Below, in pieces: positions 25,046 to 34,400 of a DNA stretch of 64,000 nucleotides. Below the pieces are notes generated by a model. The model saw nothing but the letters and a program-made list of their open reading frames with translations. It ran no database searches and was not told the origin of the DNA. The DNA comes from Hoeflea ulvae (GTDB lineage: Bacteria > Pseudomonadota > Alphaproteobacteria > Rhizobiales > Rhizobiaceae). The DNA lies in contig NZ_JAOVZQ010000001.1 of the NCBI RefSeq assembly GCF_026619435.1, forward strand, positions 1,123,501-1,187,500. Direction: 5' to 3'. A program made the position numbers and the translations under genes. Each line of letters begins with the position of its first letter. Within the stretch, counting starts at the first letter, position 1.

Positions 25046-26611
25046 TCAGATGCCGGGTGCCCGCCACATCGAGGTGGTGACCTTGCGGTCGGCCAGTTGC
25101 TTTTGCGCGGGATAGGCCGCTTCCCAGCGGGCGCGCGTGTCGCGATACACGCCCGCAAGCGCCGGGTCTGGTGTCAGGATCTTGTCGATCCCGGACATCG
25201 CATCACCTGCCTCCACCAGGGTGGAATAGGCGCCGATGCCGCAGGCCGCAACGGCGGCACAGCCAAGCGCCGTGGCTTCCCGCACCTTGGGCAAGGCGAC
25301 TTCGCGCCCCAGCACATCGGCGAGAATCTGCCCCCACAAGGCCCCTTTCGAGGCGCCGCCGGCAAAGACGACCGGCTTGTCGATGCTGACACCGGAAAAC
25401 TCGATGACCCGTTCCAGGTTGATGCTCGACACGATGGCCGCGTTTTCCTCCAGCGCGCGAAACAGGCTTGCCCGCGTCGTGTGCCCCGGTTCGATCGACA
25501 TGTTCAGAAACGAGGGTGCTGCGTGATACCATTGCCCGAAATCCATGGCATCGGAAAACACCGGAATGATGCCGTTGCTGCCGGGCGGCACCTTGGCGGC
25601 CAGTTCTTCCAGATAGGCATAGACGTCGATGCCGCGCGCCTTGGCCACGGCCTGTTCGGCATCGCAGAATGTGTCGCGGAACCAGCGCATGGTCAGGCCG
25701 ACGAAGAACGAAATGCATTCGGCCTGGTTGAGGCCGCCGATCACATGCGGATTGATCCGGACCCGCATGGTGTCGTCGGAGCGTCCGGCCGGAATGTTGA
25801 TGATCTGCTGCCAGAAGGTGCCGCCCAGGATCGCCGCATCACCATCGCTGGTCACGCCCAGCCCGAGCGAGCCCATCTGCACGTCCCCGCCGCCGCAGAT
25901 GACCGGTGTGCCCTGCCGCAAGCCGCTTTCCTGCGCGGCCTTTGCTGTCACGCGGCCGATCACCGAGCCGGGTTCGATGACATCGGGAAACAGCCCGCGC
26001 GGCAGCCCGGCCTTTTCGATCAGCTCGTCCGACCATTGCCTGGTCGTCGGATCCATCAGTCCGGTGGTGCCGGCATTGGACGGTTCGACCACGATTTCAC
26101 CGCTCAGCCGTGCTGCGATCCAGTCATTGATCATCGACAGCCGCGCCGCCCGGTCAAAGATGTCCGGCCGGTTGTGGCGCAGCCATTCAAGCCGCGGCCA
26201 GGCCCCCAGCGCAAAGGTCTGACCACTGGTGCGGTAGAATTCCCGCTCCAGGCTGGCATCGCGCGTCTTCAGCGCAGCAACTTCGGCCGTCGACCTGCCG
26301 TCAACATTGGCGCAGGCCCAGATCTCGGTCCCCGATGCGTCATAGAGCACGATGCCCTCGCGCATCGAGGTGGTGCTGATCGCGCTGATCTGGTCGGCGC
26401 GAACATCCGCCTCCGTCAGTGCCTGCCGCACGCAGCGGCACAGCAGCGGCCAGTTTGCGCCGGTGTCGAACGCCATCGACCCCGGCACATTGGGCTCCTC
26501 CACATGGGTCCATTCCTGCTGACCCAATCCGCACTGCCGCCCGGTCTGGTCGAACACCACGGCGCGGCCGCTTCCGGTGCCGGCATCAATGGCAAGATAA
26601 TATTGAGGCAT
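25046..26611 (-). CDS. lsrK: Autoinducer-2 kinase
   Basis: I place the start at the ATG at 26611 because GGGAG lies just upstream; the frame continues to 26674. The 521-aa FGGY kinase matches LsrK along its length: LAIDAGTGSGRAVVFD at the start, then SMREGIVLYD, ACANVD, PSNAGTTGL, GGGDVQMG, GGTFWQQ, FFVGLTMRWFRD, WYHAAPSF, and an ending close to TSMWRAPG. LsrK phosphorylates the open form of AI-2 (DPD) in the cytoplasm, trapping it and making the inducer of LsrR. The other genes of the locus (lsrR, lsrG, importer) lie to the right on the opposite strand. Confidence 0.93.
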   Translation of the reverse strand: MPQYYLAIDAGTGSGRAVVFDQTGRQCGLGQQEWTHVEEPNVPGSMAFDTGANWPLLCRCVRQALTEADVRADQISAISTTSMREGIVLYDASGTEIWACANVDGRSTAEVAALKTRDASLEREFYRTSGQTFALGAWPRLEWLRHNRPDIFDRAARLSMINDWIAARLSGEIVVEPSNAGTTGLMDPTTRQWSDELIEKAGLPRGLFPDVIEPGSVIGRVTAKAAQESGLRQGTPVICGGGDVQMGSLGLGVTSDGDAAILGGTFWQQIINIPAGRSDDTMRVRINPHVIGGLNQAECISFFVGLTMRWFRDTFCDAEQAVAKARGIDVYAYLEELAAKVPPGSNGIIPVFSDAMDFGQWYHAAPSFLNMSIEPGHTTRASLFRALEENAAIVSSINLERVIEFSGVSIDKPVVFAGGASKGALWGQILADVLGREVALPKVREATALGCAAVAACGIGAYSTLVEAGDAMSGIDKILTPDPALAGVYRDTRARWEAAYPAQKQLADRKVTTSMWRAPGI

Positions 26612-26639
26612 CTGGTTCTCCCGAAGCGTTGCGGACAGT

Positions 26640-27898
26640 TCAGCCGTCGAATTCGGCGATATGCAATCCGCCACCGCTGAAATCAGTGAAATAGATCAGT
26701 CCGGACTTGTCCACGAACACATCCGTGGTGTTTATGACCAGCGGTCGGTCCGGACGGTGATCGACATGTTTGTAGGGCGCCTGCGGCACCACCGCGCCGA
26801 CTTCCTTGGGGGCGTAGGGATCCGATATGTCGTGAATCCGCAAGCCGCCATTTTGCCACGTCGAAAAGATCAGCGAGGAGCTGACAAAGCTGCCGGGGCG
26901 GTTTTCATGAATATTGTGCGGCCCGAAATGCCCGCCGACGTTTTTGTAATCCCGGTCTGACGGTTTCGGAAAGGTCGAGATCGACACCGGATTGGTCTTG
27001 TCGCGGATGTCGAACACCCAGATCGGCTTGTCGCCATCCTCTCCATTGTCGAGCACGGCCTCATCGGCAACGATGAGCAGATCCCGGTCGGGCAGGGGCA
27101 GGCAATTGTGGGTGCCGCCGCCAAAGGGGGCGCCCAGTTGCGGTGTGCCAGCATTTTCGGCGCCGCCCGGTCGGCCACATCGACCACCACGAGACAGCCG
27201 TCGCGCCAGCCGCAATAGGCGGTGTCGCCGTGTACGATCGGATGGTGCAGGCTGTAGCGGCCCTGGCTCAGCGGCCAGTCCGGGGTCTCGCCGGCGGCAA
27301 TGTTCATGCCGGGCAGCCAGAACTTGCCGACAATCTCGGGTCGGGTCGGGTCCGACATGTCGATGGTGACGAGGATGAAATCGGAAAATCCCTCGAGCTG
27401 CGCCGAGGCATAGGCCCAGCGCCCGCCGACATACCAGATCCGGTGCAGACCGACGCCATTGACCGGCATGAAGCCGATCTGCCGTGGATTGACGGGATCG
27501 CTCAGGTCGAACACCGCCATGCCGGCAGAGTAATCGCGCGCGCCGTGGCCGATTGCCTTGGAGATGTCGTGGGTGTCGGCCTTGTAGTAGTTCTTCTCGT
27601 CATCGCTCGCCGGTGTGGCGAAATGGTCCTCGCCATGGACCGCCAGCAGCAGATTGTCGTGAACCTGGAGATGCAGTGACCAGGTGTTGGGCGGTGCAGG
27701 GATGAAATTTACGGTGCAAGGGTTTGCCGGATCGCGCACGTCGATCACGCTGAACCCCTTGGAGAAGATATGGGCGACATAGGCATATCCGTCGCGGACC
27801 ATGATCTGGGTGCCGTCGGACCGGCCGCCCTGATCGGAGTGTCCGACGAGCCGCATGTTAAGCGCATGGGCTGGCGCGCGCAGGTCGTTGTTGGTCAT
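26640..27898 (-). pseudogene. LVIVD-repeat (beta-propeller-like) protein, split by one frameshift
   Basis: Two minus-strand frames (26870-27928 and 26640-27215) form one protein of about 419 aa when one base is added at a run of five G (27126-27130, plus strand). This restores NWAPPFGGGTHNCLPLPDRD. The start is best at the ATG at 27898, with AGGAAGAAGAG upstream. Repeats such as GFSVIDVRDPANP, GMAVFDLSDPVNP and GLRIHDISDPYAP mark LVIVD propeller blades. No signal peptide is obvious. It is encoded between lsrK and the divergent lsrR gene and would share their control; its function in AI-2 handling is unknown. Confidence 0.75.
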
Positions 27899-27955
27899 TG
27901 CTCTTCTTCCTGTAGAGTGTGGCACCATCTGGAACGCGATGGCCGGAGTGTTCGC

Positions 27956-27998
27956 TTTACACTTAGATCATTTGCTGTGACAATATACATATGAACAC
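27956..27998 (+). promoter_or_regulatory. Candidate lsrR promoter and LsrR operator
   Basis: TTTACA (27956-27961), 17 bases and GACAAT (27979-27984) make a plausible promoter for the lsrR-like gene. The 12-mer ACATATGAACAC (27987-27998) overlaps the expected start site. The same 12-mer occurs in reverse orientation in the promoter of the transporter operon (29236-29247), which argues for a shared regulator. Confidence 0.55.
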
Positions 27999-28175
27999 CT
28001 CGCGCTTCACTCGTCAAGCATTCCGCGCAGCCGCGCCAAATCCTGCGGGACCGTGCCTTCGGGCGCATGCGGCTGCTTCGGCGATTGAAATTTTACCTTT
28101 GCGAAGCGGTTGGGGTACTCATGGGCAGGAATCACAGGCACCAATGTCGCCGCCCGGCGCAAAAGAGGGGCATCA

Positions 28176-29108
28176 ATGAAAGAACGCGAAATCGCCACCT
28201 TGTCCGATGAGGACGCGCTTCTGGCGCGGGTTGCCTGGTATTATTATCATGACGGACTGACGCAGCAGGTGATCGGCGAAAAGCTTGGCCTGCCCCGGAT
28301 CAAGGTGTCGCGCCTGCTCGAAAATGGCCGGCGCACCGGCATGCTGGAGGTGCGGATCAACTCTGCCCTGCAGGGGTGCCTCGAGATCGAAAAGCGCATC
28401 CAGGACCGGTTCGGATTGAAGGAAGTACGGGTGATCCCGCATCTGGAGACCGAAGCCCTCAGCGACCGGCTCGGCCAGGCGGCGGCGCAGGTCCTGATGC
28501 ACAAGCTGCACGAGGGCGGGCTTCTCGCGGTCGGGTGGGGCGAAACCGTCGGCGCGGCGATAAACCGGCTGGGTCACCTGTTTCAGGACCGCAGCATCGA
28601 CCTTGTCGCTATGACCGGCGGGGTTCAGGCCTATGTCGACGGTCTCCGGCTGGCCGGAAACGACCGCAAGATGTTTCTCGTACCCGCGCCTCTGGTCGTC
28701 GAGGATCCGCAGGTGGCGCAAGCCATGCTGCGCGACACCGGCGTCCGCAGCACGCTCGACATGGCGCTGCGCGCCGACTACGCCCTGGTCGGCATCGGCG
28801 CGGTGGATGAAAAGGCCAGCGTTATCCGCCACGGCTATGTTCACCCTGCGGAAGTTCGTGCCATGCGGCGCGGTGGCGCGGTGGGCGACGTCCTGTGCCG
28901 CTTCATCGACAAGGACGGCCACGAGCTGGACTTTCCCCTGCATGACAGGGTTATCGGCCTGCCCCTGGAAAGCTATCGCGGCAATCCGCAGATGATCGCG
29001 GTTGCCGGCGGGCAGGACAAGATCCCGGCGATCCGGGCGGCCCTGCAGGGCGATTTCATCGACATTTTCGTCACCGATGAAGAAACCGCCAACACCCTGA
29101 TGCAATAG
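28176..29108 (+). CDS. lsrR: SorC-family transcriptional regulator, LsrR-like
   Basis: I use the ATG at 28176, 5 bases behind AGAGGGG, which gives 310 aa (E. coli LsrR is about 317 aa). The N-terminal helix-turn-helix is YYHDGLTQQVIGEKLGL followed by KVSRLLENGRRTG. The rest is the sugar-binding domain of the SorC family (VGWGETVGAAINRL, ALVGIGAVDE, GDVLCRFIDKDG). LsrR represses the AI-2 uptake genes and releases DNA when it binds phospho-AI-2 made by LsrK. It lies between lsrK/LVIVD and the transporter operon, with candidate operators on both sides. Confidence 0.85.
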   Translation: MKEREIATLSDEDALLARVAWYYYHDGLTQQVIGEKLGLPRIKVSRLLENGRRTGMLEVRINSALQGCLEIEKRIQDRFGLKEVRVIPHLETEALSDRLGQAAAQVLMHKLHEGGLLAVGWGETVGAAINRLGHLFQDRSIDLVAMTGGVQAYVDGLRLAGNDRKMFLVPAPLVVEDPQVAQAMLRDTGVRSTLDMALRADYALVGIGAVDEKASVIRHGYVHPAEVRAMRRGGAVGDVLCRFIDKDGHELDFPLHDRVIGLPLESYRGNPQMIAVAGGQDKIPAIRAALQGDFIDIFVTDEETANTLMQ

Positions 29109-29214: not shown

Positions 29215-29249
29215 TTGACAGATTCACGGAACAATGTGTTCATATGTTC
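29215..29249 (+). promoter_or_regulatory. Promoter and LsrR-type operator of the AI-2 transporter operon
   Basis: A consensus -35 TTGACA is at 29215-29220. In the spacer is a perfect dyad GAACA-ATG-TGTTC (29229-29241), followed by ATATGTTC, a second half-site (29242-29249). The stretch 29236-29247 is the exact reverse complement of the 12-mer at 27987-27998. No strong -10 is seen. A repressor bound here would block RNA polymerase. Confidence 0.55.
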
Positions 29250-29290: not shown

Positions 29291-30322
29291 TTGAGTTTGG
29301 TACAGGAAAATCGGGAGGACCCCGCCAAACGGCTTCGTGCCGAGCTTGAGGTCGCGGACTGGCGCAACAGCCTGCCGCCGCTCTTCGGACCGACCAAGGT
29401 GCCGCTGTCCGCACCTGCGGTCATGCTGCTGATCATCGCCATCGTCATGGGGTTTGCCGCACCGTCGTTCTTTTCGCTCGGCAATCTGCGCGCCATCTCG
29501 ATCGATGCCTCGCTGATCATGCTGCTTGCCGTCGGGATGACGGCAGTAATCACCGCGCGGGGGATCGACCTGTCGATCGGGGCGATCCTGACATTGTCCA
29601 GTGTCGCCTTTGCCGCCGCGCTCAAGGATTTCGGCCTGCCTTTGTGGCTGTCGGTCCTCATCGGTTTCGCCACCGGCGGGCTGTGCGGTCTGGTCAACGG
29701 CATCCTGATCACCAAGCTCAAGATGCCCGACTTCATCGTCACGCTTTCCACCGAGCTGATTTTCCGCGGCCTGGCGCTGGTCTATGCCGGTGGCGGCGTG
29801 TTCTTCGCCTTTCCCGAGGCGATCACGTGGCTCGGCCGCGGGCGTCTTCTGGGCATTCCGGTGCCGCTGGTGATCGGCCTGACCGTTGTCATCATCGCCC
29901 ATTTCATCTTTGCCTATCACAAGGTCGGCGCCCGGCTTCATGCCGTCGGCGGCAATCCGACCGCGGCCAAGCGGCTGGGGATCAGCGTCCTGCACTACCG
30001 CATCGGCGTCTATGTCTTCATGGGCCTGATCGCGGCACTGGGCGGCATCATGTTGACCGGCCGTCTCGACGCCGTCGTGGCATCGGGCGCAGTCACCATC
30101 CTGCTCAACACCATTGCGGCGGTCATCGTCGGCGGCACCAACCTGTTTGGCGGCCGTGGCTCGATCGTCGGCACCCTGCTGGGAGCATGGCTGCTGGCGA
30201 CCATCGTCAACGCCGTCGTGATCCTCGGCTTCGAGGCTTTCTGGCAGCACGTCGCTGCCGGCGCCGTGATCCTGATCACCATCGGCCTTTATTCGCGCCG
30301 CAATACGAGGACCGAAGAATAG
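29291..30322 (+). CDS. ABC transporter permease, RbsC/LsrC-like
   Basis: This 343-aa membrane protein starts at TTG (29291) behind GGGAGA; the nearby ATG at 29286 runs into a stop at once. It has about nine hydrophobic segments and the RbsC-type motif GRLDAVVASGAVTILLNTIAAV in its second half. LsrC and LsrD of E. coli are two such permeases; here there is only one, so a homodimer is implied. It is the first gene of the AI-2 transporter operon and passes substrate from the LuxP-like receptor into the cytoplasm. Confidence 0.88.
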   Translation: MSLVQENREDPAKRLRAELEVADWRNSLPPLFGPTKVPLSAPAVMLLIIAIVMGFAAPSFFSLGNLRAISIDASLIMLLAVGMTAVITARGIDLSIGAILTLSSVAFAAALKDFGLPLWLSVLIGFATGGLCGLVNGILITKLKMPDFIVTLSTELIFRGLALVYAGGGVFFAFPEAITWLGRGRLLGIPVPLVIGLTVVIIAHFIFAYHKVGARLHAVGGNPTAAKRLGISVLHYRIGVYVFMGLIAALGGIMLTGRLDAVVASGAVTILLNTIAAVIVGGTNLFGGRGSIVGTLLGAWLLATIVNAVVILGFEAFWQHVAAGAVILITIGLYSRRNTRTEE

Positions 30323-30354: not shown

Positions 30355-31491
30355 ATGAAGACCATATCCATGAGGACCGCATTGATGACGGGCGCCGCGC
30401 TGCTTGCGATGTCGCTGCCGCTGGCCGCACAGGAGGTGCCGGCCGGTGCACAGGAGCGGGGATATCTGCTGCTGCCCGAACTGCACGAGATGATGCCTGA
30501 AGAACGCACCAAGATGGAAGCCTTCATGCAGCGGGTGCAGGCCGATACAGTCAAGAGCACCAAGACCTATGACGAGCCGCTGAAGATCGCGATGATGTTC
30601 CCGAGCCTCGAGACATCGGACGCCTGGGCGCGCCTGAACATCTCGACCCGGGCGCGGCTGGAGGAAATGGGAATTCCGTTTGAAGTGACGGAATTCATGA
30701 TCCGTCCTGACGAGCATGACCGCCAGGGCGTGCAGGTCGAGCAGGTTCTGGGTGGCGATTTCGATTATGTCGTCATCGGACCGTCGGAATACCAGGTGCA
30801 GAAATCCAACATCACGCGTCTTGCCGAGGCCATGCCGACGCTGGTGATGAATGTGGTGAACCCCTTTGTCGACACGCTCGGCACCGACAAGCAGCCGCTC
30901 ACCCATGTCGGCTTCGACCACACCATCGGCGCAGAGGCTTTGTGCCGCTGGGTAATTGGTGAAACCGGCGGTGAAGGCACCTTCGCGCTGGTGCGCTATA
31001 TTCCCGGCCTGATCGACAGCCAGCGCTCCGACCACTTCGCCGAATGCGTCACCGCCAATTCCAACATGACGCTGGTCGACGAATTCGAGGCCAATGGCGA
31101 CCGCGAACTCGCCTTCAGCGGTGGTCAGGCGCTGCTCAGCCGCCACCCCGACATCACCATGCTGCATGCTGGCAACACGGCGGTGGCGCTCGGCGTTCTC
31201 TCGGCCGCGGCCGAACGCGGCAAGCTTGACGATGTCATCATCAATGGCTGGGGCGGCGGTGCCGACGAGTTGAAGTCGATCAAGGAAGGTGGCCTGAAGG
31301 TCACGGCCTTCCGCGTCAATGACGACTGGGGCGTTTCGGTGGCGGAAGCCATTCGCGCTCATGCCGAGGGCGACGACGTGCCCGTGGTGCTGGCCGCGAC
31401 TATCAAGCCGATCGACTACTCCATGACCGCCGAGCAGATCGACGCCGAGACGGATTACGCCTTCCGTTATTCGGGACAGCTCGACCGCTAG
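30355..31491 (+). CDS. LuxP-like autoinducer-2 binding protein of an ABC importer
   Basis: The start is the ATG at 30355 behind GGGAGGAAGA, giving 378 aa with a signal peptide that would be cut near residue 25. The fold is the periplasmic sugar-binding type, but the residues point to Vibrio LuxP rather than LsrB. S88, W91, N166, R224, T275, W299 and R320 stand where LuxP (numbering from memory) has S79, W82, N159, R215, T266, W289 and R310, which hold the borate form of AI-2. E86 replaces Q77. The segments VIINGWGGGADEL and FRVNDDWGVSVAEAI are also LuxP-like. It would capture AI-2 in the periplasm and hand it to the adjacent permease. A ribose-type ligand is the alternative. Confidence 0.8.
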   Translation: MKTISMRTALMTGAALLAMSLPLAAQEVPAGAQERGYLLLPELHEMMPEERTKMEAFMQRVQADTVKSTKTYDEPLKIAMMFPSLETSDAWARLNISTRARLEEMGIPFEVTEFMIRPDEHDRQGVQVEQVLGGDFDYVVIGPSEYQVQKSNITRLAEAMPTLVMNVVNPFVDTLGTDKQPLTHVGFDHTIGAEALCRWVIGETGGEGTFALVRYIPGLIDSQRSDHFAECVTANSNMTLVDEFEANGDRELAFSGGQALLSRHPDITMLHAGNTAVALGVLSAAAERGKLDDVIINGWGGGADELKSIKEGGLKVTAFRVNDDWGVSVAEAIRAHAEGDDVPVVLAATIKPIDYSMTAEQIDAETDYAFRYSGQLDR

Positions 31492-31575
31492 GTCCCGCAC
31501 TCACCGACACGACGCAGGGGCCGGAGCCGGTCCCTGCGTTCCAAGACATACAAGTTGCAATCTGGAAGACATGAC

Positions 31576-32301
31576 ATGAGCGTAGTCCTTCGCGGAATTT
31601 CCAAACACTACGGCGCGGTCACGGCAATCGAGGGCATCGACCTGACCGTGGAAGCGGGCGAGGTGGTCGGTTTGCTCGGTGACAACGGTGCCGGAAAGTC
31701 GACGCTGATGAAGGTGCTCGCCGGTGCGGTGACACCCGACGCCGGCACCATCGAGGTGGACGGCCAGGTCCATCAGTTCCGCAATTCCTCGGAAGCCAGC
31801 GATGCAGGCATCGCCATGCTCTACCAGGATCTGGCGCTGTTTGACGAGATGCCGGTGGTGCACAACATCTTTCTCGGGCGCGAAATGACCAACGCCCTCG
31901 GCTTTCTCAGATATGGCGCCATGCGCAAGCGTGCGCAGGAGATCGTCAACGGATTTTCGGTACGGCCCTTCGATGTGCGCACGCCTTCGGGACATCTCTC
32001 CGGCGGGCAGCGGCAGGTGTCCGCGCTGGCCCGCACCACGGCCTTCGGCAGCCGCTACATCATTCTCGATGAGCCCACATCCGCACTCAGCCCCAGTGCC
32101 CGCGACGAGGTCCTGACCATCGTGCGCGAACTGGCCGACAGCGGCATCGGCATCATCATGGTCAGTCACGATCTCGGCCATGTCCGCAAGGTCTGCGACC
32201 GGGTGGCGATCCTGCATCTGGGCACCATGGCCGGCGTGCGCGACATGGCCACCACCACCCAGGACGAAATCATCACGCTCATTGTTCAGGGACACGCCTG
32301 A
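31576..32301 (+). CDS. ABC transporter ATP-binding protein, single-cassette (FrcA-like)
   Basis: I use the ATG at 31576 (241 aa). Walker A is GDNGAGKST, the Q-loop region is AMLYQDLALFD, the signature is LSGGQRQ and Walker B is YIILDEPTSAL. Sugar ATPases such as RbsA and LsrA have two cassettes in about 500 aa; this one has a single cassette, so it must work as a homodimer as in the FrcA type. It powers the import of AI-2 bound by the LuxP-like protein encoded 84 bp upstream. Confidence 0.88.
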   Translation: MSVVLRGISKHYGAVTAIEGIDLTVEAGEVVGLLGDNGAGKSTLMKVLAGAVTPDAGTIEVDGQVHQFRNSSEASDAGIAMLYQDLALFDEMPVVHNIFLGREMTNALGFLRYGAMRKRAQEIVNGFSVRPFDVRTPSGHLSGGQRQVSALARTTAFGSRYIILDEPTSALSPSARDEVLTIVRELADSGIGIIMVSHDLGHVRKVCDRVAILHLGTMAGVRDMATTTQDEIITLIVQGHA

Positions 32302-32333: not shown

Positions 32334-32825
32334 ATGCGACGCAAGGGTGTACTCAACGTAAAGCTTGGCAAGGCGATATCCGAAATGGGCCATGACGACA
32401 TCATGATGGTCGTCGATGCCGGCTATCCCATGGCCTATGAGGACCGGGTGATCGACCTGGCGCTGTGCCCGGGCATTCCGGATCTTCTGACGGTGCTGCG
32501 CGCCATCCGTCAGGATATGTGGGTCGAGGCCTATCACATGATTGACGATGCCAAGGCCAACAATCCCAACGCCTGGAACGGCGTCGCCGAAGTCTTCCCC
32601 GACGCCAAGGGCGGCGTCAAGCCGAACGAATGGTTCCACGAAGACGGCTACCGCAATGCCAAGTTCATCGTCCGCACCGGTGCCTGGATGCCCTGGGGCA
32701 ATGTCGCGCTGGTCTCCGGCATTCCGGTCCGCGAATGGTTCGACAACACCGGCGCCGACGTTCCAGACAGCTGGACCGAACGCCACGCACTCAATGTCAA
32801 GCACGGCCAGACCGGGGTGGAGTGA
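32334..32825 (+). CDS. RbsD/FucU-family mutarotase-like protein
   Basis: The 163-aa product matches RbsD/FucU proteins: RKGVLNVKLGKAISEMGHDD with the catalytic histidine position, then VVDAGYPM, and a C-terminal RTGAWMPWGNVALVSGIPV. The family interconverts ring forms of sugars such as ribose and fucose. E. coli lsr operons have no such gene. Open and cyclic forms of DPD or its phosphate interconvert, so a mutarotase would be sensible here, but that is inference. It stands between the ATPase and lsrG genes and is 7 bp from lsrG. Confidence 0.85.
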   Translation: MRRKGVLNVKLGKAISEMGHDDIMMVVDAGYPMAYEDRVIDLALCPGIPDLLTVLRAIRQDMWVEAYHMIDDAKANNPNAWNGVAEVFPDAKGGVKPNEWFHEDGYRNAKFIVRTGAWMPWGNVALVSGIPVREWFDNTGADVPDSWTERHALNVKHGQTGVE

Positions 32826-32832
32826 CGCAGAC

Positions 32833-33150
32833 ATGCTGGTTCAACTTGTTCATATTCAGGTAAAGCCGGACCGCATCGGGGATTTCCTCGATGCCTTCCG
32901 GATCAATTACGAAGGCACGACGAAGGAGCCGGGAAACCTGCGCTTCGACGTGTTGCAGGATCCCGATGATGCGACGCGTTTCTCGATCTACGAGGTCTTC
33001 GTCGATGAAGCCGCAGTCGATGCGCACCGCAACACCGAGCATTATGCAAAAACCGTGGCCCTGCTCGACGACATCATGACCGGGCCGCGCTCGAAGGATT
33101 TCTACAAGATGATGATGTCGGATCTGACCGATGCAAGGGTGAACCCGTGA
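32833..33150 (+). CDS. lsrG: Phospho-AI-2 isomerase/degradation protein LsrG (ABM domain)
   Basis: The ATG at 32833 gives 105 aa. The protein matches LsrG closely: VHIQVKPDRIGDFLDAFR, GNLRFDVLQDPDD, FSIYEVFVDEAAV, and the ending MTGPR. It is one antibiotic-biosynthesis monooxygenase (ABM) domain. LsrG converts phospho-DPD to 3-hydroxy-2,4-pentanedione 5-phosphate, which removes the LsrR inducer. It overlaps the next gene (aldolase) by 4 bp, GTGA at 33147-33150, so the two are translationally coupled, which suggests consecutive steps. Confidence 0.92.
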   Translation: MLVQLVHIQVKPDRIGDFLDAFRINYEGTTKEPGNLRFDVLQDPDDATRFSIYEVFVDEAAVDAHRNTEHYAKTVALLDDIMTGPRSKDFYKMMMSDLTDARVNP

Positions 33151-34400
33151 CCGTCAGCCTGACACAAAACCGCTGGAGCGACGCCGAGGCCGCCCGTTGG
33201 CAGCAGGATGCCGGCGAAGATCCGGCTGACCGCGATCTTGCGCTGCGCATCTATACGTCGCGGCTGATCGGCGGTGATCCTGACCTGGTGCTGCACGGGG
33301 GTGGCAACACCTCGGTCAAGACCGTGCGCGGCGCCGATGACGAGGTGATGCACGTCAAGGGCAGCGGCTGGGATCTGGAGACGATCGAGGCGCCGGGGCT
33401 TCCGGCGCTTCACCTGGAGGCAATCCGCACCGGGGGCAGGGCACAGGTGCTCAGCGACCCGCAGATGGTCGCGCTGCTGCGTGAAAACCTGCTGGATCCG
33501 AAGGCGCCCAATCCATCGCTGGAAACCCTGCTGCACGCATTCCTTCCGGCAAAATTCGTCGACCATTCCCATGCCACGGCGGTTCTGGTTCTGGTCAATC
33601 AACCTGATGCCGATGCGATCTGCCGTACCATCTATGGCGATCGGCTGGCCGTGGTGCCCTATGTGATGCCGGGTTACGACCTGTCGATTGCGGCAGCCGA
33701 AATCGCCGAGGTCAATCCCGGTTGCGAGGGGCTGTGGCTGGTCAATCACGGGATCTTCACCTTCGGCGAGACCGCGCGGCAGTCCTATGACCGGATGATC
33801 GAATTCGTCAATATGGCCGAACGTCATCTCGCCAGCCGCGGCGTCACCATCCTGCCGACGGACGAGCATCCGCAGCAGGCGCCGTTCATCGAGCTTCTGA
33901 AACAGCGGCTGCAGGCAGCCGGTCCGGTCTTTGCCGATAAAATCGCCCTGGACGCCCGCGCCGGGCCGTCAATCAGTGCCTTCCTGGCTCACCCTGATCT
34001 CGCCGACCTCGCCACGCGCGGCACCGTCACGCCGGATCATGTCATCCGCGTCAAACCCTTTCCGCTCTTGCTGAAAGGCACCGAGAGCGCCACGCAAATC
34101 GACCAGGCCCTGACGGATTACGGCACGCGCTACGAGGCCTATTTTCATGCAGGTGCTGCAGAGGCAAAGGAGCCCAAGGTCATGCTTGATTGCCTGCCGC
34201 GGGTCGCCCAGATAGAAAACACCGGCATGGTCGGAATTGGCAAGACTGCCGCAGAGGCTAAGATCGTCGCCGATCTGACATCGCAGTCAATGCGCGTCAT
34301 GCTCGCAGCCGAAGCCTATGGCCGCTTTACGCCCTTGAAGCCGGGGCAATTGTTCGAGATGGAATACTGGTCGCTGGAACAGGCCAAACTGGCGAAATAG
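33147..34400 (+). CDS. Class II aldolase, stand-alone RhaD-like domain
   Basis: This 417-aa protein resembles the aldolase half of the bifunctional rhamnulose-1-phosphate aldolase/short-chain dehydrogenase proteins. It has HGGGNTSVK (50-58), SLETLLHAF with E126 and H130, zinc histidines H140 and H142 in DHSHAT, and VNHG with H201. It ends at FEMEYWSLEQAKL, the usual hinge, without the dehydrogenase domain. The start GTG overlaps the end of lsrG. No lsrF thiolase is seen, so this enzyme may break down the LsrG product, perhaps releasing dihydroxyacetone phosphate. That role is a hypothesis. Confidence 0.82.
   Translation: MTVSLTQNRWSDAEAARWQQDAGEDPADRDLALRIYTSRLIGGDPDLVLHGGGNTSVKTVRGADDEVMHVKGSGWDLETIEAPGLPALHLEAIRTGGRAQVLSDPQMVALLRENLLDPKAPNPSLETLLHAFLPAKFVDHSHATAVLVLVNQPDADAICRTIYGDRLAVVPYVMPGYDLSIAAAEIAEVNPGCEGLWLVNHGIFTFGETARQSYDRMIEFVNMAERHLASRGVTILPTDEHPQQAPFIELLKQRLQAAGPVFADKIALDARAGPSISAFLAHPDLADLATRGTVTPDHVIRVKPFPLLLKGTESATQIDQALTDYGTRYEAYFHAGAAEAKEPKVMLDCLPRVAQIENTGMVGIGKTAAEAKIVADLTSQSMRVMLAAEAYGRFTPLKPGQLFEMEYWSLEQAKLAK

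Follow-up and report, generated by a model that had tools for sequence, protein, structure and literature searches.

Two classes of periplasmic receptor for autoinducer 2 (AI-2) have been described: LuxP, which takes the borated form and signals through a kinase, and LsrB, which takes the unborated form for uptake (PMC12503165, PMC12834153; here and below, statements on papers refer to their accessible portions). LuxP was given as a protein of Vibrio alone in 2004 (PMC524169) and of the Vibrionales in 2008, when homologues were noted beside regulators with PAS domains in Oceanospirillales and Desulfuromonas, as was one in Desulfovibrio that lacks importer genes (PMC2561040), and it is still said to be confined to Vibrio in two papers of 2025 (PMC12503165, PMC11796354). 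A paper of 2024 lists 28 LuxP candidates, two of them alphaproteobacterial (PMC11069264); a survey of 2025 counts 267 LuxP proteins, with AI-2 binding reported for three, and gives cellular import of AI-2 as the purpose of binding by LsrB and LuxP alike, naming no locus in its accessible portions (PMC12268683). An LsrB-type lsr set is known from Ruegeria mobilis (PMC6333666). In the accessible portions of the literature searched, which mostly did not extend to subscription papers, we found no description of a receptor of the LuxP type whose gene accompanies those of LsrK, LsrG or LsrR. Some relatives already carry the name "autoinducer 2-binding protein LuxP" from automatic annotation, and a Roseicitreum record labels the neighbouring kinase lsrK. 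Here we describe such a locus in a 64,000-nucleotide stretch of Hoeflea ulvae (the window; contig NZ_JAOVZQ010000001.1, positions 1,123,501 to 1,187,500), which belongs to a genome of 5.1 Mb in two contigs. A member of the LuxP family that serves Lsr-type uptake would break the described pairing of receptor class and role.

We read the locus, with a probability of about 0.8, as an Lsr-type AI-2 uptake and degradation locus that would use an ATP-binding cassette (ABC) importer of the LuxP superfamily instead of LsrACDB. Established here are the class of the receptor protein, the gene set, the shared site, the lack of a LuxS match and the exchange of the transporter type in comparison with relatives. 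Open reading frame (ORF) calls and profile searches gave the following layout:

25046..26674, minus strand: lsrK, AI-2 kinase of the FGGY family (NCBIfam LsrK equivalog, 806 bits, cut-off 528)
26640..27928, minus strand: gene of an LVIVD-repeat protein, frameshifted into ORFs 26870-27928 and 26640-27215
27987..27997, minus strand: 11-bp site TGTTCATATGT, candidate LsrR operator, in the control region that separates lsrR from the lsrK/LVIVD genes
28110..29108, plus strand: lsrR-like regulator of the SorC family, start codon provisional (NCBIfam LsrR, 307 bits, equivalog cut-off 486)
29237..29247, plus strand: second copy of TGTTCATATGT, candidate LsrR operator, upstream of the importer genes
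29291..30322, plus strand: ABC permease, the only one in the locus (BPD_transp_2)
30355..31491, plus strand: LuxP-superfamily periplasmic binding protein of 378 residues (sequence match, alignment, tree and fold)
31555..32301, plus strand: ABC ATPase of 248 residues with a single nucleotide-binding domain (ABC_tran, one stretch)
32334..32825, plus strand: protein of the RbsD/FucU family of sugar-ring mutarotases (PF05025, 93 bits)
32833..33150, plus strand: lsrG-like phospho-AI-2 isomerase with an ABM fold (NCBIfam LsrG, 118 bits, cut-off 135)
33147..34400, plus strand: class II aldolase, occupying the place of lsrF (PF00596)

The sequence-only reading had assigned the receptor to the LuxP class, and sequence match, tree and fold all agreed with this. 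LuxP was the nearest solved structure by sequence as well as by fold, and the fold match spanned residues 29..375, N-terminal extension included, at 29% identity. LsrB did not appear in the lists of structure matches, from which we conclude nothing. The N terminus has a plausible signal peptide, and residues 1-24 are mostly of low confidence in the structure model. The closest named relatives are two Hoeflea records (96% and 93% identity). With both a HMMER alignment to 1jx6 and a MAFFT alignment with authentic LuxP, S88, W91, N166, R224, T275, W299 and R320 fell on LuxP S79, W82, N159, R215, T266, W289 and R310, as had been proposed, and the exchange of LuxP Q77 for E86 was indeed the sole change among eight contacts. 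These eight positions are what we take to be the AI-2 contacts of LuxP; N159, R215 and R310 are the ones drawn from papers. N159, R215 and R310 are given as ligand contacts in PMC6452917, and R215 and R310 also in PMC3794749. Seven identities in eight positions, at 29% identity overall, have a binomial chance of about 0.001.

In a careful tree of 49 rows (44 of the LuxP superfamily and five of an RbsB-like outgroup), the superfamily, receptor included, was split from the outgroup by a branch with 100/100 support. The receptor belonged to a clade of 14 rows (100/99) that was sister to a kinase-linked LuxP clade of 11 rows (100/100; joint node 96/90), while two further clades, B1 (100/99) and B2 (87/88), stood apart from both. 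The LuxP clade was anchored by a protein scoring 538 bits to 1zhh, and a Vibrio campbellii copy fell within it. We regard the 96/90 sister node as good but not beyond doubt, because there are long branches within the LuxP clade. An earlier, quick tree of 79 rows recovered these main groups too, though less well supported; there, P0070 and L041 branched off separately close to the two sister clades, and L100 sat on a very long branch within the LuxP group. Membership of the receptor in the RbsB or LsrB group was rejected by the trees and by a profile search; the LuxP-family profile did not return E. coli LsrB at E 0.001. A tree placing the protein with RbsB had been named beforehand as what would refute the sequence-only reading, and this test came out in favour of the reading. 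A blastp comparison of the receptor with LsrB likewise gave no match at E 0.001, in line with the view that a LuxP-type receptor stands here in place of an LsrB-type one. Compared with Vibrio LuxP of the LuxPQ system (PDB 1jx6, 1zhh, 2hj9), the protein shares a near full-length fold, seven of eight contacts and a place in the sister clade, but it differs by Glu for Gln77, by the lack of an adjacent LuxQ and by an ABC importer and AI-2 degradation genes alongside. It is thus not LuxP proper, lying outside the clade, with Glu at position 77 and no LuxQ; none of the ten scanned ORFs of the locus encodes a sensor kinase or an adjacent LuxQ.

The contacts had also been offered as evidence for AI-2, and this did not hold, since they are mostly kept in LuxP-superfamily importers without LsrK nearby as well. 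In the counts of contact patterns, which go by row, include repeats of one locus and assign rows outside the trees by pattern alone, QSWNRTWR occurred in 22 rows and was the pattern of each of the 11 rows that the careful tree put in the LuxP clade; ESWNRTWR (76 rows) and ESFNRTWR (11 rows) together took in all 14 rows of the receptor's clade. DSWARTWR was found in 61 rows, every tree-placed one being B1, and DSWNRTWR in 25: 17 of these fell in B2, L041 fell outside it, and 7 had no place in any tree. E. coli RbsB has NNFDRDFQ and L100 VSNDRQWF, and there were a few odd or partial patterns. We therefore rejected the contact residues as proof of AI-2 binding: the DSWARTWR and DSWNRTWR rows come mostly from importer loci without LsrK, although they include some paralogues from the Vibrio genus without importer genes, some rows whose context was unseen and some repeated loci. 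By this comparison the contact residues are largely family-wide and mark the LuxP superfamily rather than a ligand. R310, N159 and T266 distinguish LuxP from E. coli RbsB, which has Q, D and D there, and the receptor keeps these and R215; judged from the alignment, the two arginines characterise the superfamily as a whole and alone cannot separate AI-2 from a sugar. Position 77 does separate the clades, being Gln in fully read LuxP-clade rows except the long-branched L100, Glu in every row of the receptor's clade that is readable there and Asp in B1 and B2, and the change from Gln77 to Glu may be the one that matters most. It is the context, not the contact residues, that points to AI-2.

This context begins with LsrK, which exceeded its equivalog cut-off by 278 bits, reached only 177 bits with the xylulokinase model and is 56% identical to LsrK of Sinorhizobium meliloti and 54% to that of Escherichia coli. 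It keeps the E. coli LsrK tryptophans W43, W277, W320 and W435, which have been placed at the pocket (PMC10056567). The company of permease, ATPase, LsrK and LsrG claimed for the receptor was present, and the locus also holds the LsrR-like regulator, the RbsD-family protein, the class II aldolase and the LVIVD-repeat gene. The LsrR-like regulator is 54% identical to S. meliloti LsrR and 41% to E. coli LsrR, the LsrG-like protein 58% and 49% to its respective counterparts, and the aldolase 51% to that of the S. meliloti lsr locus; no match to LsrF was found within the window at E 1e-8. The importer is of another kind. The permease shares 36% identity with E. coli RbsC, 28-31% with LsrC/LsrD and 42-49% with the LuxP-superfamily-linked permeases of the four other loci compared; permease and ATPase together are just 28-36% identical to Lsr and Rbs parts, and E. 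coli LsrA and RbsA are about twice as long as the ATPase of the locus. A search for the LuxS family gave no match in the genome, while the control recovered LuxS in 5 of 14 genomes, E. coli included, so that an origin of the AI-2 in other bacteria, as had been suggested, fits. The E. coli K-12 lsr operon differs by its LsrACDB importer, its LsrF thiolase and the presence of LuxS.

Both control regions of the locus carry an exact copy of TGTTCATATGT, one each and the only two in the window (29237, plus strand; 27987, minus strand); 20 mononucleotide shuffles gave a mean of 0.3 hits at up to one mismatch. At the same tolerance the site was found in 9/9 LuxP-type lsr loci (in L010 as a single mismatched site only) and in the lsrA-lsrR gap of 14/18 LsrB-type loci, S. 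meliloti included, with 10 exact copies, counts that are to be read with the relatedness of the loci in mind and with the motif having been derived from the window and Roseicitreum antarcticum before counting. It was absent from the gap of L178, L179, L187 and L192. Outside those gaps, there was one further hit in 343,597 bases, and 60 permuted motifs were found in a mean of 0.23 and a maximum of 3 of the 18 LsrB-type gaps. A 15-kb stretch of E. coli has 11 TGAACA/TGTTCA words, and 5 of these fall in the 248-base lsrR-lsrA gap; the full motif was not found there. The simplest reading is that TGTTCATATGT is an LsrR operator common to both importer types, from which a common inducer, phospho-AI-2, would follow. 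A literature search for the LsrR site returned nothing usable. Separately, TGAACA/TGTTCA words 27 bp apart occur twice in the E. coli gap (L113:4259-4459) and once in that of R. antarcticum (L134:8167-8199), and this spacing is perhaps that of an LsrR multimer.

Related kinases accompany different importers among relatives. An NCBIfam LsrK model run over 385 genomes of the class returned only the genome of the window and 0/14 in the control; it was set aside, and the LsrK protein was used as the query in 346 genomes of the same family (taken as Rhizobiaceae), with hits taken at E 1e-100. An LsrK-type kinase was found in 23/346 genomes, the genome of the window counted, and stretches of 8-19 kb around the 22 other kinase genes were read. 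Three of the 23 loci were of the LuxP type, all from the same genus, and 17 of the LsrB type; one was cut at a contig end, and two had a distant kinase (41% identity) and neither receptor. Both receptor types together were seen in 0 of the 23 loci within the stretch read, that is, around the kinase gene rather than over whole genomes. The class II aldolase was present in 3/3 LuxP-type versus 13/17 LsrB-type loci of the family, and the RbsD homologue in 3/3 versus 0/17.

In S. meliloti, the lsr locus on pSymB has class II aldolase, lsrB, lsrD, permease and lsrA on one strand and lsrR, lsrK and an ABM protein on the other. The LsrACDB loci of S. meliloti and the family resemble that of the window in LsrK, LsrR, LsrG and class II aldolase (51-58% identity) and in the candidate operator, but differ by the LsrB receptor, two permeases, a double-length ATPase and the lack of the RbsD homologue. 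They thus offer a natural exchange experiment, in which related kinases, regulators, isomerases, aldolases and a candidate operator occur with two importers in one family, and the effect of the receptor class on the form of AI-2 consumed should therefore be directly testable. The S. meliloti locus (aldolase L135:2944-4194) has the class II aldolase and no LsrF in its 21.6-kb stretch, and LsrF was seen in none of the 22 other loci of the family; phospho-AI-2 may meet a different fate in these bacteria than it does in E. coli.

Altogether nine distinct LuxP-type lsr loci were compared: the window, two from Hoeflea, two from Stappia, two from Pseudotabrizicola, R. antarcticum and one Rhodospirillales bin. 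LsrK, LsrR, permease, receptor, ATPase, RbsD and LsrG were present in 9/9 and the aldolase in 8/9, with the permease and ATPase genes flanking the receptor gene in 9/9, window counted; as the loci are related, these are not counts of independent events. The ninth locus, L010, has in place of the aldolase an LsrF that is 62% identical to that of E. coli.

A genome scan for receptor homologues confirmed 131 loci, of which the best 80 were examined. Among these, 78 had an importer gene (related permease or ATPase) no more than 4 kb away, the two exceptions being L011 and L071 (516 bases from the end of its locus). LsrK lay within 8 kb in 7/80, and the same seven carried the RbsD homologue within 4 kb; the 72 loci L012-L083 (34-42% identity to the receptor), some of which are short, showed no LsrK over the 8 kb. 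LuxP-clade proteins, in turn, had importer genes within 4 kb in 0/13 loci (L127 assigned by pattern only), and where the neighbours of five such loci were scanned, histidine kinases were found in 5/5, the LuxQ periplasmic domain passing the Pfam cut-off in three, falling just under it in one and missing in one. Seen from the outgroup, the kinase-linked LuxP clade arises amid proteins linked to importers, and uptake would on this view be the older role; the tree thus offers a candidate origin of LuxP from ABC importers. The B1 and B2 importers (e.g., Ruegeria pomeroyi SPO_RS21100) resemble the locus in having one permease and an ATPase with a single nucleotide-binding domain beside the receptor and in most contact positions, but have Asp at position 77, and the commonest B1 pattern has Ala at 159. 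In Pseudotabrizicola sediminis (L026:4478-19955), a B2 receptor and importer are clustered with a methylthioribose kinase (455 bits, cut-off 275), methylthioribose-1-phosphate isomerase, dihydroxyacetone kinase and FGGY kinases, which makes methylthioribose or a similar sugar a candidate substrate of this importer. Because of this cluster, sugar-type ligands probably exist in the LuxP superfamily.

The best reading, by analogy, is that the locus is not an LsrACDB system, its importer being different, but would work like one. The LuxP-type protein would bind AI-2 in the periplasm and deliver it to an importer which, judged from gene order, would consist of the permease and the single-domain ATPase, two copies of each being assumed. 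From homology to Lsr, LsrK would phosphorylate the open-chain AI-2 inside the cell, phospho-AI-2 would release the LsrR-like repressor from the TGTTCATATGT sites before both gene groups, and LsrG would isomerise it, leaving the product to be split by the class II aldolase that stands where LsrF would be expected. The RbsD-family mutarotase, found with the LuxP-type but not the LsrB importer in the compared loci, could open the furanose ring, or may simply have accompanied an Rbs-like importer. The AI-2 would come from other species, because the search of the genome gave no LuxS match, and with such a locus LuxS-less bacteria could remove the signal of others.

Several points weigh against this reading. 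AI-2 binding and uptake by the locus are what we infer from sequence, and most contacts recur in importers that have no LsrK nearby, including the one in the methylthioribose-kinase cluster; the Gln77 of LuxP is Glu in the receptor; LsrR and LsrG score below the NCBIfam cut-offs; and the RbsD homologue and class II aldolase would also be compatible with pentose uptake. The S. meliloti site overlaps a possible upstream start codon of lsrA, and conservation there may be partly coding. In the LsrK tree, the LuxP-type group had a support of 54/22 with L010 included, too little to order the two transporter types or to tell a single from a double exchange and its direction. L011, a member of the receptor's clade, lies between sensor kinases, with importer genes absent within 4 kb.

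As to the ligand, the alternative that survives best, with a chance a little short of even, is that only unborated AI-2 is taken up, as an isomer of 2-methyl-2,3,3,4-tetrahydroxytetrahydrofuran (THMF) or of 2,4-dihydroxy-2-methyldihydrofuran-3-one (DHMF), by a LuxP-family protein that would be the functional equivalent of LsrB, with Glu86 contacting a neutral furanose hydroxyl where LuxP has Gln77. The clade-wise change at position 77, Gln in LuxP (L100 excepted), Glu here and Asp in B1 and B2, speaks for it, since Glu would place a negative charge beside an anionic ligand, which argues weakly against the preference for the borated form that the sequence-only reading had considered; an extra carboxylate should, by general chemistry, disfavour the borate anion. 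The S. meliloti and Salmonella receptors, moreover, bind R-THMF (PMC2728841). Less in keeping with it are the retention of R215 and of the three residues that set LuxP apart from E. coli RbsB, and a report that LuxP homologues are mainly marine, freshwater, algal or annelid, most of them in oceans, with receptor types linked to boron (PMC12268683). Under the Lsr-type reading, a borated route is conceivable though rather unlikely: the receptor would capture S-THMF-borate in borate-rich water, the RbsD-family protein would open the ring and free the borate so that LsrK could phosphorylate the C5 hydroxyl, the metal-dependent class II aldolase would replace the LsrF thiolase on the LsrG product, and Vibrio LuxP would descend from such importers by a change from uptake to kinase signalling.

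Improbable by comparison is a pentose or deoxy-pentose as the ligand (ribose, methylthioribose, 5-deoxyribose, apiose or similar), with the kinase and the ABM protein acting on that sugar. The RbsD-family protein and aldolase would suit it, the permease, when compared with the references from E. coli and S. meliloti, is closest to RbsC, and the receptor of the methylthioribose-kinase cluster in L026 has seven of eight LuxP contact positions; against it stand the margin of LsrK over its equivalog cut-off compared with the xylulokinase score, the LsrG and LsrR-like proteins with the shared candidate operator, the LsrF of the related locus L010 and the same aldolase in the S. meliloti lsr locus. 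That the receptor signals as LuxP does with LuxQ and the neighbouring importer genes are incidental can practically be dismissed, for although the sister clade pairs with sensor kinases (5/5 scanned neighbours, three with the LuxQ periplasmic domain over the Pfam cut-off and a fourth just under) and L011 sits between two hybrid kinases, permease and ATPase flank the receptor gene in all nine LuxP-type lsr loci, importer genes accompany 78 of the best 80 of 131 loci and no sensor kinase is among the ten scanned ORFs.

The L011 receptor itself (L011:6662-15014, Anaerolineales, Chloroflexota) is 61% identical to that of the window and flanked by two hybrid histidine kinases, pointing to a possible signalling use within the clade. 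Three genomes of the genus of authentic LuxP (taken as Vibrio) and Vibrio sp. THAF190c (together L119, L121, L123 and L137) carry a LuxP-superfamily protein of the B1 pattern, which in L119, the sole one with its neighbours scanned, adjoins another Peripla_BP_4 protein and a HAMP-GGDEF-EAL protein, not LuxQ. In two Trueperaceae bins (L027:5577-18800, L064:3694-17424), a B2-type importer lies within about 10 kb of homologues of LsrR (about 50% identical) and LsrF (about 50%), and AI-2 may be a ligand there too. The LVIVD-repeat gene beside lsrK, split by a frameshift in the window, is a single coding sequence of 1254 bases in R. antarcticum, and the split would be either a sequencing error or the mark of a pseudogene; an LVIVD-homologous region adjoins lsrK in 8/9 LuxP-type lsr loci.
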